From positions 4,216,001-4,280,000 of the forward strand of contig NZ_CP036274.1 in assembly GCF_007747655.1 (NCBI RefSeq): a DNA stretch of 64,000 nt. The letters are read 5' to 3'. The notes beneath the pieces are model-generated. The model did not search any database. It was given only the letters and a program-made list of their open reading frames with translations, and had not been told where the DNA came from. Position numbers and translations under genes: made by a program. The DNA is from Anatilimnocola aggregata (GTDB taxonomy: Bacteria; Planctomycetota; Planctomycetia; Pirellulales; Pirellulaceae). Positions 21,709-35,141 of the stretch are shown piece by piece (positions within the stretch are counted from its first letter, which is position 1; every line of letters starts with the position of its first letter).

Positions 21709-21888
21709 GGGTGCCTCTGGCATTTTGCCAGTGCTTGGCCAGCTCGGATACGTAAGCCGATCGCGGAATGCTGGCCAATCGACCTTCTACCTGAACGCTG
21801 CCCTTTGCAAAAAGGCAAGCACTCTGCTTTCCCTGTTAAGCAACCACGCAACTGCCAATCAGCACTGGCAGAATGCCATTGGCACACC
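21709..21888. repeat. 180-bp element with terminal inverted repeats and nested hairpins
   Basis: The outer arms are 21709-21734 (starting GGGTGCCTCTGGC) and 21862-21888 (ending GCCATTGGCACACC), imperfect inverted repeats of about 26 bp. Each contains a smaller palindrome (CTGGCA-TTT-TGCCAG; TGGCA-GAA-TGCCA). Inside are TTGGCCAGC (21735-21743) with GCTGGCCAA (21770-21778), and a TGCC(C)TTT/AAAGGCA hairpin at about 21799-21817. The whole can fold as a cloverleaf. It lies between the stops of carA and the redoxin gene. A non-autonomous, MITE- or REP-like element is the best guess. Confidence 0.6.
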
Positions 21889-30005: not shown

Positions 30006-30014
30006 GGTGGCACG
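30006..30014. repeat. Left 9-bp target duplication of the IS4-family element
   Basis: GGTGGCACG directly precedes the left terminal inverted repeat and is repeated exactly at 31563-31571 directly after the right one. It is part of the terminal arm of a MITE-like repeat, which is the insertion target. Confidence 0.9.
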
Positions 30015-31562
30015 CAACGCCGTGAACCCTTTTTGGCGAGAGTGAAAAAGTCTTGATGCGATTGAGGTTAGTGGCGATGCTTTCGTTTCTCACCGCGAAA
30101 GGATCGTTCACCGCTCACCCGAAAGGATTCGGGAATGTCGCATCAAGACCCTAGTCGAAGTCAGCAAGGTCGAAGTCAGGTTGTCGTTGCCGAGTTCCAA
30201 GCGGATCAGCTCAAGCAGTCACTGGAGCGATTGCTCGGCGAGGGGGACTGGGGTGCGATTCGGTTTCGTGACGACTGCACGTGGGGCCCACGGCAATTGG
30301 CGGCCACGGCGTTGCTCTGGGCTTGGTCGGATGAACTCACGCTGGGGGACCGCTTCTTTGCTGCCCGCAGATTAGCTCAATTTCTGTTTGCGCCGCAACA
30401 GGAGTTTGCCAGTTCGGTGCAAGCCTTCATGAAGTTGCTGCTGCGTTGGACGGTGCTGCTGGTCGGCGTATTGCAGGTGACGTTTCGACGGCAGATGCAG
30501 CGTGCATTTCCCACCCTTTGGCGAGTTCATGGCCTGGTCCTCTTCGGCATTGATGGCAGCCGAGTCGACGTGCCGCGAAGCAAGTCACACGAGGCGGCAC
30601 ATGCTCCGGTTCGCGATGGTAAGGGACGAAAACTCAAACGCAATCGTCGCCAGAAACCGCGCACCGCGATTCACTCGCGCAAGGCAAGCGTCCCGCAAAT
30701 GTGGTTGACCCTGCTGTTTCACGTCGGCACAGGACTGCCTTGGTCGTGGCGAATCGGTCCGACCGGCAGTAGCGAGCGCGAGCATTGGTTGGCGATGCTC
30801 GACGAACTTCCGAGCAATGCCCTGATCACCGCCGATGCTGGCTTCGTGGGTTACGATTGTCTGCGCGCCGTTGTTAACAGTGGTCGCCATTTCCTGGTGC
30901 GAGTCGGTTCGAATGTGCGTCTGCTGTACAAGCTGGGCTTCTCCCGCGAAGTCGTTGGCACGGTGTATCTCTGGCCCGATCGTGCTGCCCGTCGCAGCCA
31001 GCCGCCGCTCGTGTTACGCCTCGTCGTGGCCACTGGTGGAAAGTATCCGGTCTACTTGCTCACCAGCGTCGGAGAAGAAGAATTATCGCGCGGACAAGTC
31101 CTCGACGTTTACCGTCGTCGCTGGGGCGTGGAACTCTTCTTTCGCCACTTGAAGCAAACGTATCAGCGCCGCAAACTTCGCAGCACCAATGCCGCGCATG
31201 CGCGTTTGGAGTTGGAGTGGTCGCTGCTGGGACTATGGAGCATGGCGCTCGATGCTCAGGTCCAAGCGACGCGCGTACAACTAGATCCTACTCAACTCAG
31301 CCTAGCGGGCGTCTGGCGCACGTATCGGCGGCTGATGCGCGACTATCGACATCCGCTGGCTCGGCAACAATCGCTCCCCCACCAACTCCCTCAAGCAGTG
31401 CGCGACACCTACGAGCGAGCCAACAAATCCAGCCGCAACTATCCTCGCAAAAAACGTCCCGACCCGCCCGCTGGCTCTCCCGAGTTCCTACTCGCTACCA
31501 AGTCCCAAATCCATCGCGCCCGCTACCTCACGACCGCTGCCTAAAAAGGGTTCACGGCGTTG
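30015..31562. mobile_element. Complete IS4-family insertion sequence (1548 bp)
   Basis: Perfect 20-bp terminal inverted repeats CAACGCCGTGAACCCTTTTT (30015-30034, and reversed at 31543-31562) enclose one transposase gene. The element is bounded by 9-bp direct repeats GGTGGCACG (30006-30014 and 31563-31571), which are target duplications. Size, repeat length and transposase agree with the IS4 group. Because repeats, duplication and gene are all intact, the insertion is probably recent and the element may still be active. The transposase stop codon lies inside the right repeat. Confidence 0.95.
30135..31544 (+). CDS. IS4-family transposase (DDE)
   Basis: This protein of 469 residues is an RNase H-fold DDE transposase. 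The first catalytic Asp is in LFGIDGSRVDVPRS (about 140) and the second is in ALITADAGFVGYD (about 234). The Glu is in VYRRRWGVELFFRHLKQTY (about 332), which fits the IS4 signature Y-(2)-R-(3)-E-(6)-K exactly. It would cut both strands at the element ends and reinsert it, acting on chromosomal DNA. The frame is intact and long enough to be functional. The leader inside the element carries a short direct repeat (GAAAGGAT at about 30097 and 30121), and the ATG has GAAAGGA about 9 bp upstream. Confidence 0.95.
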   Translation: MSHQDPSRSQQGRSQVVVAEFQADQLKQSLERLLGEGDWGAIRFRDDCTWGPRQLAATALLWAWSDELTLGDRFFAARRLAQFLFAPQQEFASSVQAFMKLLLRWTVLLVGVLQVTFRRQMQRAFPTLWRVHGLVLFGIDGSRVDVPRSKSHEAAHAPVRDGKGRKLKRNRRQKPRTAIHSRKASVPQMWLTLLFHVGTGLPWSWRIGPTGSSEREHWLAMLDELPSNALITADAGFVGYDCLRAVVNSGRHFLVRVGSNVRLLYKLGFSREVVGTVYLWPDRAARRSQPPLVLRLVVATGGKYPVYLLTSVGEEELSRGQVLDVYRRRWGVELFFRHLKQTYQRRKLRSTNAAHARLELEWSLLGLWSMALDAQVQATRVQLDPTQLSLAGVWRTYRRLMRDYRHPLARQQSLPHQLPQAVRDTYERANKSSRNYPRKKRPDPPAGSPEFLLATKSQIHRARYLTTAA

Positions 31563-31790
31563 GGTGGCACGTGGTGGTACTCCACCCGTGTGCTCCGATG
31601 TCTTCTGCGGTAAGGTTGCTTGCCAAGGGTGACGGAAATCAGCTCGAATTCGCCTGCAGTTGCAGCGCAGTGTTACCTCAGAATGGCATGTACTCCACCA
31701 CTCGCTGCGTCATTCCCGCGCACGAAAATGGCCAGCAAACACGGGTGAGTACTCCCGTGCCACCCAATAATCAGCAGCGTTCAGACGTGC
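31562..31790. repeat. MITE-like repeat, copy 1 (interrupted by the IS)
   Basis: The core 31562-31765 matches 32583-32783 with only a few differences, except in its left arm, and the match continues to 31790. The right arm (31738-31765) is AACACGGGTGAGTACTCCCG followed by TGCCACCC, the reverse complement of the copy-2 left arm. The IS4 element split this copy inside its left arm (GGGTGGCACG), so the first bases are also present at 30005-30014. There is no coding capacity. Confidence 0.8.
31563..31571. repeat. Right 9-bp target duplication of the IS4-family element
   Basis: GGTGGCACG directly after the right terminal repeat, matching 30006-30014 exactly. Confidence 0.9.
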
Positions 31791-31826
31791 GACGCCGCCG
31801 GGGACGTCGATGCTGCACAGAAAACA

Positions 31827-31916
31827 TGCGAACAAACAAATCCAGCCGACGTGCGGAAAGACTCGGCTCAAGATGGTTCATCAACCGCCGCACGCAGCTG
31901 ATTTGTAGTGTTAGGC
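31827..31916 (+). repeat. Integron attC-like recombination site
   Basis: The 90-bp site ends in the R' box GTTAGGC (31910-31916) and begins near GCGAAC with the conserved AAC (31831-31833). The left arm AACAAACAAATCCAGC (31831-31846) pairs with GCTGATTTGTAGTGTT (31897-31912) with a few bulges, and GTGCGG (31851-31856) pairs with CCGCAC (31888-31893). This is the imperfect-hairpin layout of attC (59-base) sites, of usual length. The R'' box is degenerate. It immediately precedes the 191-residue gene. Confidence 0.6.
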
Positions 31917-31936
31917 ATCCAAAGGGCACAGCTGCT

Positions 31937-32512
31937 ATGGACCACGACGACGGGTACGCGTTCCCGGCTGCAAACATCGGAGATACGGACTTGGTCGCTC
32001 TTGCCCAGACCAACCCCACGGCGGCCAAGGAGATCGCGCGACTCGAAGTCCTGTTGAGTCGCGGCGAGGAAACCAAGGAGGAGTTCCTGCAGCTTTGCCA
32101 GTTGCTATTCGATGTGGGTTCGATTTCAGCATCTGAAATCCTGCTGCGCCGCAACCTTGACTACTATGAGGGCCACGCGCTTTACGTTCGTCTGCACGGC
32201 TCAGCCAAGCAAGAAGAGTTCGCTACGGCGATTGCGGCTTTCAAGTCGCAATTCGAAGTGGACTTGGTGCTGATGGCGGAGAACTACTTTCTTGTTTCAA
32301 TGTTTCGCTCGAATGGAGGCCCGCGGCGCTTCGACGATCTCGTCCTCCTTTCGAGCCCTTGTGAGATCAAGTTCGGTTACATTGAGCAAGACAAGGTCGA
32401 AGCGGACGTGACATTGCTTGATCCAGGGCGAGAGGTCTTCGCCGCCGATGAATGCTTGTTGTTGTTCTTCGTGAATGGTGTTTGGGAACTCGCGGATCCG
32501 CTGGATACATAA
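31937..32512 (+). CDS. Hypothetical protein, probable integron-type cassette gene
   Basis: This protein of 191 residues is not recognised. The N-terminal part (NPTAAKEIARLEVLLSRGEETKEEFLQLCQLLFDVGSISASEILLRRNLDYYEGHALYVRLHG) reads as TPR-like helices. The rest is beta-rich (EIKFGYIEQDKVEADVTLLDPG, ECLLLFFVNGVWELADPLDT). No signal peptide or catalytic motif is seen. ATG 31937 is chosen since it lies 20 bp after an attC-like R' box, the expected layout of a cassette. The open frame extends upstream into the IS, but that part is IS and repeat DNA. The stop (32510-32512) overlaps the next attC-like left arm, also as in cassettes. Confidence 0.7.
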   Translation: MDHDDGYAFPAANIGDTDLVALAQTNPTAAKEIARLEVLLSRGEETKEEFLQLCQLLFDVGSISASEILLRRNLDYYEGHALYVRLHGSAKQEEFATAIAAFKSQFEVDLVLMAENYFLVSMFRSNGGPRRFDDLVLLSSPCEIKFGYIEQDKVEADVTLLDPGREVFAADECLLLFFVNGVWELADPLDT

Positions 32513-32900
32513 CAAGTCGCTGCACCAGACGGGGGCCGCATTACGGTTTTTCGGAATTCACAGGTTCCTCGGCGGCCCCGGCGGGTGGCACGGGAGTACT
32601 CACCCGTGTTCTTCCCTGTCTTCTGCGGTAAGGTTGCTTGCCAAGAGTGACGGAAATCAGCTCGAATTCACCTGCAGTTGCAGCGCAGCGTTACCTCAGA
32701 ATGGCATGTACTCCACCACTCGCTGCGTCATTCCCGCGCACGAAAATGGCCAGCAAACACGGGTGAGTACTCCCGTGCCACCCGATAATCAGCAGCGTTC
32801 AGACGTGCCACCCCGCTGCAAATCAAATTGTGGCCCCTTTTATTTTTCTTGCTTACTGCACTCTGCTCTGATTCAAATATCCTTCGCGGCGACGTTAGAT
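32507..32900 (+). repeat. Second attC-like site, apparently split by MITE copy 2
   Basis: The left half ATAACAAGTCGCTGCACC (32509-32526) overlaps the stop codon and looks like an attC start. The right half GCGGCGAC-GTTAGAT (32886-32900) ends in a box fitting GTTRRRY. GTCGCTGC (32516-32523) pairs with GCGGCGAC at 7 of 8 positions. The 390 bp between is too long for an attC, but it contains MITE copy 2 (32583-32808), so the site may have been interrupted by insertion. Confidence 0.4.
32583..32808. repeat. MITE-like repeat, copy 2 (intact)
   Basis: The terminal inverted repeats are perfect over 28 bp: 32583-32610 (GGGTGGCACGGGAGTACTCA then CCCGTGTT) and 32756-32783 (its reverse complement). Each arm is itself nearly palindromic around GAGTACTC. 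The interior of 145 bp has no gene. It is a direct repeat of the copy at 31562. A further GTGCCACCC at 32806-32814 hints at a slightly larger element. Confidence 0.8.
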
Positions 32901-32929
32901 CTAGGAAGTGAGCAGGTGGTGGCTAATTG

Positions 32930-33469
32930 ATGACAGGAACTATCCGCACTCGTTTGGTCGCGATGGTTATGTACGGAGCTATGGTACTTGTAGGTTGCGG
33001 TGTAAGGACTAGTTCTTCCATAGACAACAAGATTACGACGAAACACCAGACTGTTTATGTCGTTCATGAATTCATGTGGCGTTGGCGTTCAAACCGCTCG
33101 CCGTTGGTTTTGGACGAAGGGCGACCTGGCAAGCCGGTAAAGTCATTCTTAGACCGTGAGCGAGCAGAGGAACATTGCCGAGCACTCAATTTGCACAAGC
33201 GTGCGAAATCAAACCCTTTTCGCTACCTGCCAGAAGAGGGAGAGTACACCTCGATGGATAGGGTGGCATTTCTGGCCGCCGTTCGCGCTGAAGGACTTAT
33301 CCCACCCGCAGATTCGCCGGAAGCGGGCAACGATGAACTTGCTTGGATATGGTTTGAATGGTGGGAAAACCATCGACGCGAGTGGGATAACGATCGCGTG
33401 GAGCGATTATGGAAAGCAATGGACCGAGTCTATTTCTACGAGGTATTGCCAGTGGAACTCGTGCCTTAA
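32930..33469 (+). CDS. Putative lipoprotein, possible second cassette gene
   Basis: This protein of 179 residues has a signal peptide with lipobox (VAMVMYGAMVLVGC; Cys about residue 20), so it should be lipid-anchored. The mature part is charged and unusually rich in Trp and Arg: EFMWRWRSNRSPLVLDEG, SFLDRERAEEHCRALN, then LAWIWFEWWENHRREWDNDRVERLWKAMDRVYFYEVLP. I do not recognise a family. ATG 32930 is preceded by AGCAGGTGG. A GTTAGAT box lies 30 bp upstream, so it may be the second gene of an integron-like cassette pair; no attC-like site is seen after its stop. Base composition appears less GC-rich than the surrounding genes, suggesting transfer. Confidence 0.65.
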   Translation: MTGTIRTRLVAMVMYGAMVLVGCGVRTSSSIDNKITTKHQTVYVVHEFMWRWRSNRSPLVLDEGRPGKPVKSFLDRERAEEHCRALNLHKRAKSNPFRYLPEEGEYTSMDRVAFLAAVRAEGLIPPADSPEAGNDELAWIWFEWWENHRREWDNDRVERLWKAMDRVYFYEVLPVELVP

Positions 33470-35048: not shown

Positions 35049-35141
35049 TGTCCAACAATCGGGTCGATTGTTGGACAGTACCTAGCGCCATTCACGGGTT
35101 TGCGAGCGATTCGTGTTCAACAATCGGTGGTATTGTTGGAC
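35049..35141. promoter_or_regulatory. Two CCAACAAT...ATTGTTGG palindromes in the phr-GTPase divergent region
   Basis: TGTCCAACAATCG (35049-35061) and CGATTGTTGGACA (35065-35077) form a perfect 13-bp palindrome with a 3-bp centre. GTTCAACAAT (35115-35124) and ATTGTTGGAC (35132-35141) form a second of the same core with one G-T mismatch and a 7-bp centre. Four CAACAAT half-sites in 93 bp, between divergent starts at 35000 and 35269, look like operators for a dimeric repressor or activator. They could also fold as RNA hairpins. No T tract is present. Confidence 0.6.

Follow-up and report, generated by a model that had tools for sequence, protein, structure and literature searches.

The small gene at position 31937 of the DNA analysed here (the window, a stretch of 64 kb at 4,216,001-4,280,000 of a planctomycete genome of 9.0 Mb in a single contig) follows an attC-like hairpin, ends in part of another such hairpin and is bracketed by two miniature transposable elements (MITEs). 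The locus thus raises the question of whether the gene came to its place as an integron cassette, was carried there by the MITEs, or simply lies among palindromes that resemble attC. The segment at 31797-32582, made up of attC1, the gene and attC2 (Table 1), is very probably the relic of an integron cassette array, an array now of the CALIN type, that was put in place by an integron integrase (IntI) in the past. The anatomy of the sites and their orientation, the absent integrase, the truncation of attC2, the MITE and the insertion sequence (IS) are all read directly from the sequence.

Table 1. Features in and around the cassette segment, and MITE-like pairs at the other attC loci (window coordinates unless a locus is named)
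Feature	Position	Strand	Description
IS	30015-31562	+	DDE_Tnp_1 transposase gene 30135-31544; 14 near-identical full copies in genome
MITE copy 1	31562-31796	+	same direction as copy 2 and 94% identical to it; left end interrupted by IS
attC1, complete	31827-31916	+	R1 covariance model 32.6 bits, E 2.8e-6 in 64 kb; bottom-strand hairpin z -4.4
attC1 boxes			R'' TGCGAAC; L'' AATCCAGC (one unpaired C); unpaired A further in; inner stem GTGCGG/CCGCAC; L' GCTGATT; R' GTTAGGC
Cassette gene, 191 aa	31937-32512	+	no Pfam/NCBIfam match; stop codon inside R'' of attC2
attC2, truncated	32507-32582	+	R'' ACATAAC, L'' and inner stem present; L'-R' end missing; R1 19.6 bits
MITE copy 2	32583-32814	+	core 32583-32783 with 28-nt perfect inverted ends GGGTGGCAC.../...GTGCCACCC; extension to about 32814
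MITE pair, window	31562-31796 and 32583-32814		
MITE-like pair, 345 kb	L141 8641-8830 and 11891-12080		second family, similar ends; one attC enclosed, other just outside
MITE-like pair, 3.71 Mb	L143 8161-8280 and 9116-9304		encloses one gene with its attC

An attC model for planctomycetes

No Rfam family gave a match in the 64-kb window, and an attC model was therefore made from relatives. The integrase family TIGR02249 was searched over 348 genomes of the class and the regions around 20 of the integrases were taken; comparison of these regions with themselves revealed textbook arrays, with repeats of about 100 nt every few hundred bases. The covariance model R1 was trained on 52 sites from 11 integron arrays of other planctomycetes, the window sequence being excluded, and its structure (R and L stems, an unpaired spacer and two extrahelical bases) was set by hand. 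Pairs in the alignment are 93.9% intact, and the covariation score is 0.546, against 0.147 for shuffles and at most 0.112 for slid controls. R1 also detects attC sites in viral contigs outside its training set (35.7, 29.9 and 23.5 bits). It replaced two simple Python attC scanners, since these missed known array sites. With fast filters R1 itself misses attC1, and the window scan was run with filters off.

That cassette arrays have been little studied in planctomycetes, as the initial annotation remarked, is only partly true: attC models for Planctomycetes were published in 2021 (PMC8352920), and planctomycete intI genes were known by 2008 at the latest (PMC2426708). R1 is a taxon-specific attC model able to detect degraded sites. 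Nested perfect palindromes, GTCCAACAATC...GATTGTTGGAC, lie beside an mnmE-like gene at 35050-35141 of the window and are not attC by R1.

The two sites and the gene between them

The best match to this independent model in the window is attC1, which spans the full length of R1 (model positions 1-92) and has its boxes where the initial annotation had put them. In the fit to R1 the AAC...GTT boxes and the paired L''/L' arms are present and spacers separate the R and L boxes, and two bases stay unpaired, a C in L'' and an A eight columns beyond it, at the columns where the training sites have theirs. Training site L087 also contains the R'' word TGCGAAC. The strand opposite attC1 scores only 9.7 bits. 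Folding of the single strands likewise bore out the site, the bottom strand forming a hairpin of -21.8 kcal/mol that none of 200 shuffles equalled (z -4.4, versus z -3.4 for the top strand). According to the published rule, the bottom strand is the substrate of recombination and extrahelical bases are carried on the R''-L'' arm (PMC2727003); the strand preference and extrahelical bases of attC1 agree with it. The site keeps the hairpin features needed by a foreign IntI and, to judge from its sequence, could still serve one. Over 21 nt, the end of the transposase gene (31415-31435) equals the left arm of attC1 (31828-31848) at 19 positions, a likeness that is probably due to chance.

The left half of a second attC, also noticed earlier, proved real and longer than first described, reaching to 32582 and including the inner stem GGGGGCCGC/GGCGGCCCC. 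The second strand of this stem, GGCGGCCCC, lies at about 32579, and the MITE begins at 32583. The R1 match (32512-32597, + strand, 19.6 bits, E 0.0065 over 64 kb) runs on into the MITE. Taken alone at genome scale, attC2 has an E of about 0.9 and is weak because its right end is missing. The L'-R' half with the cleavage box was found neither at the MITE junction (32583) nor beyond the MITE, and the right end of attC2 is thus concluded to be lost. An exact 17-mer of attC2, TAACAAGTCGCTGCACC, is shared with attC sites of two viral contigs; among 294 genomes of the phylum it occurs in its own genome only, and a comparison of attC2 DNA with plasmids gave no match.

The gene at 31937 has attC1 upstream and attC2 at its 3' end, all on one strand, and is in this sense a gene cassette; its stop codon, TAA, falls in the R'' box ACATAAC of attC2. 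As in Pfam and NCBIfam, no match to the 191-aa product was found among plasmids or viral contigs. Homologues were found in four planctomycetes (69, 63, 55 and 34% identity), with no attC in their surroundings, and the family is therefore a sparse, planctomycete one whose cassette form is seen only in the copy at 31937. An AlphaFold model of the protein (mean pLDDT 71) had no PDB match at E <= 0.001, and since the model is too weak and such a match is lacking, no function can be assigned.

Integrase absence and CALIN status

The 9.0-Mb genome contains no integron integrase over the TIGR02249 cut-off, the best score being 81.8 bits versus a cut-off of 265. The best IntI-like matches, near 6.80 and 8.94 Mb, are partial and of XerC/D size, and were rejected as XerC/D-like. 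A CALIN is defined as a cluster of two or more attC sites with no integron-integrase gene nearby (IntegronFinder 2.0, PMC9024848). In the window, attC1 and the truncated attC2 lie 0.6 kb from each other on the same strand, and as no integrase gene was found in the genome the array is a CALIN. The initial annotation had proposed just such an integrase-less, CALIN-like integron cassette with a MITE in its second attC, a proposal that both the R1 hits and the TIGR02249 search uphold. CALINs tend to be small (PMC9024848), and the array resembles them in size, in its pair of same-strand sites and in the absence of an integrase. It departs from the usual CALIN in that attC2 is truncated by a MITE and that the other attC sites of the genome are unlinked.

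These other sites, as revealed by a genome-wide search, comprise three further clear attC at two loci, scoring 72.2 bits (347.1 kb), 41.7 bits (344.6 kb) and 42.8 bits (3708.3 kb); those at 344.6 and 347.1 kb constitute a second CALIN. Weak attC-like matches also lie on one strand within 2.7 kb near 5.20 Mb (L144 9990-10090, 11665-11751 and 12584-12682, with 16.7, 20.2 and 14.5 bits, respectively), and may represent a decayed cassette array.

That the window segment is a relic of an integron is thus argued for by two same-strand R1 hits (32.6 and 19.6 bits) 0.6 kb apart, obtained with a model made from other genomes only. Against it count the weakness of attC2 by itself at genome scale, the homologues of the 31937 gene, which elsewhere do not reside in cassettes, and the lack of an identified attI, and the action of IntI is itself deduced from the sites. 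Past events would have run as follows. The cassette, consisting of the 31937 gene and attC2, would owe its place beside attC1 to an integron integrase of an ancestor or a donor genome, or to one working in trans; a MITE would later have taken the place of the attC2 right end; and a further MITE, whose left end holds an IS, would have come to adjoin attC1. As attC2 is without its cleavage box, the gene is probably no longer excisable as a cassette, and is probably immobile at present by the integron route.

MITEs, the IS and possible movement of cassette DNA

The elements called MITEs here are short and non-coding, with inverted ends of 28-29 nt, a core of about 200 nt and genomic copies that are 71-94% identical. 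The bounds of the core were set by other copies in the genome, and copies 1 and 2 have in common a 31-nt extension. No target-site duplication is visible at the copies compared. The finding of this core, with relatives in the genome, directly after the left half of attC2 bears out the MITE that had been placed there. The IS in the window is flanked by a 9-bp duplication, GGTGGCACG, at 30006-30014 and 31563-31571. Targeting of attC by the IS was considered and rejected, in that the 9-bp duplications in the window (GGTGGCACG) and at 345 kb (GGTGCCACT) are ends of MITE-like elements; at both places the IS inserts into GGTGSCAC at such ends. Sandwiches of the form MITE-IS-MITE are present at three further places in the genome. 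A diverged copy (72%) of the second MITE-like family lies at 21710-21819 of the window, with no attC near it.

Unexpectedly, all three of the clear attC loci, which are unlinked, have attC-bearing DNA bracketed by same-direction MITE-like pairs. The pairs belong to two families, both GGGTGSCAC-ended, and 220 kb of sequence from 11 other places in the genome contained no copy of either. This is a lead, hinting that MITE pairs may have scattered cassettes. The cassette segment might accordingly have moved together with its bracketing MITEs, whether by transposition or by MITE-MITE recombination, independently of an integrase, for which the three unlinked pairs, the absence of both families from the places sampled and precedents for MITE-bounded mobilisation all speak. 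We nevertheless regard such movement as unlikely: no target duplication is visible at the edges of the units, other members of the MITE family found in the window lie on either side of IS copies that have no attC, and the second family was counted within the sampled stretches rather than genome-wide. Moreover, since insertions target an end motif common to the MITE-like elements and the IS, clustering is possible without any movement of cargo. In its general form, that in this integrase-less genome MITE transposition or recombination replaced IntI and spread cassettes as bracketed units at all three loci, the proposal is likewise improbable. With two direct MITE copies around attC DNA the cassette segment is similar to known MITE-bounded units (the integron mobilization unit; TIME-COMP, PMC13367494), but, unlike them, has no visible target duplication, known matching transposase or sign of recent movement, so that the similarity is one of resemblance only. 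If general, MITE bracketing would be a testable route for the escape of cassettes from integrons.

The initial annotation had also proposed that a single attC was split by the MITE with both halves kept, the right half lying at 32886-32900 and the lipoprotein gene at 32927 forming a second cassette. The GTTAGAT word of this proposed half stands about 30 nt upstream of the lipoprotein gene, which is a usual cassette spacing, and GCGGCGAC is able to pair with GTCGCTGC; GTTRRRY alone, however, arises by chance about once per kb per strand. An R1 search with filters off gives no match to 32886-32900, the L' box (T-G/T-A, present in 52 of 52 training sites) is missing, the surrounding segment does not fold into a hairpin, and 70 nt of unrelated sequence separate it from the MITE end. 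Nor was an attC found downstream of the lipoprotein gene. It is thus very unlikely that attC2 survives in two halves, and in place of the two cassettes suggested there is a single complete gene, followed by the truncated attC2 that belongs to it. With no attC after the lipoprotein gene and no support for the right half, the status of that gene as a cassette appears unsupported. Its relatives are weak (24-38% identity, best E 3e-9) and almost all belong to a single other family within the class.

In background scans R1 scored at most 12.5 bits (100 kb of sampled host DNA) and 14.6 bits (92 kb near MITE copies), and the third-ranked match in the window (64 kb, filters off), below attC1 and attC2, has 12.4 bits. 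That the two attC-like signals are chance inverted repeats is very improbable, for although palindromes are frequent near MITEs and the window has many low-scoring ones, it is disfavoured by these scans (two same-strand hits of 32.6 and 19.6 bits versus maxima of 12.5-14.6 bits), by the strand asymmetry at attC1 and by the strong attC sites elsewhere in the genome.

Integrons in Planctomycetia

A relic of an integron array, the preferred reading of the segment, has ample company in related bacteria. IntI exceeds the TIGR02249 cut-off in 106 of the 348 class genomes searched, same-family genomes included, and attC sites are present in 79 of the 90 genomes of the family, some of which show no IntI match at E 1e-40. 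The array in the window is like planctomycete chromosomal arrays (such as those beside the IntI of G584, G569, G596 and G377) in its R and L boxes, two unpaired bases and variable loop, but unlike them does not extend past one cassette and lacks IntI. In sequence, attC1 and attC2 are unlike one another and unlike the same-family type GGATAACCATGCCGTGCACCGGAGC. Integrons are a common feature of Planctomycetia and attC persists in relatives without detectable intI; the window case is an ordinary integron relic, one more CALIN in an integron-rich group.

In the same-genus genome G605 there is no IntI and no attC at E 0.001, and its MITE clusters are without attC. The PhyH and photolyase-like genes, between which the segment lies in the window, are not side by side in G605, and the cassette segment was therefore not found at a matching place. 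Large integrase-less attC arrays are present in G516, a complete-looking, single-contig genome of the same family with 40 attC matches and no IntI match at E 1e-40; its long arrays, both on the + strand, are at L199 7292-16658 (15 strong sites) and L200 6488-11745 (10) and hold 25 of the 40 matches. In two further genomes of this family the IntI genes (G569:C1:226492-227439 and G584:C1:3614026-3614973) each contain one in-frame TAA stop yet lie beside large arrays, and integrase decay may be common in the family.
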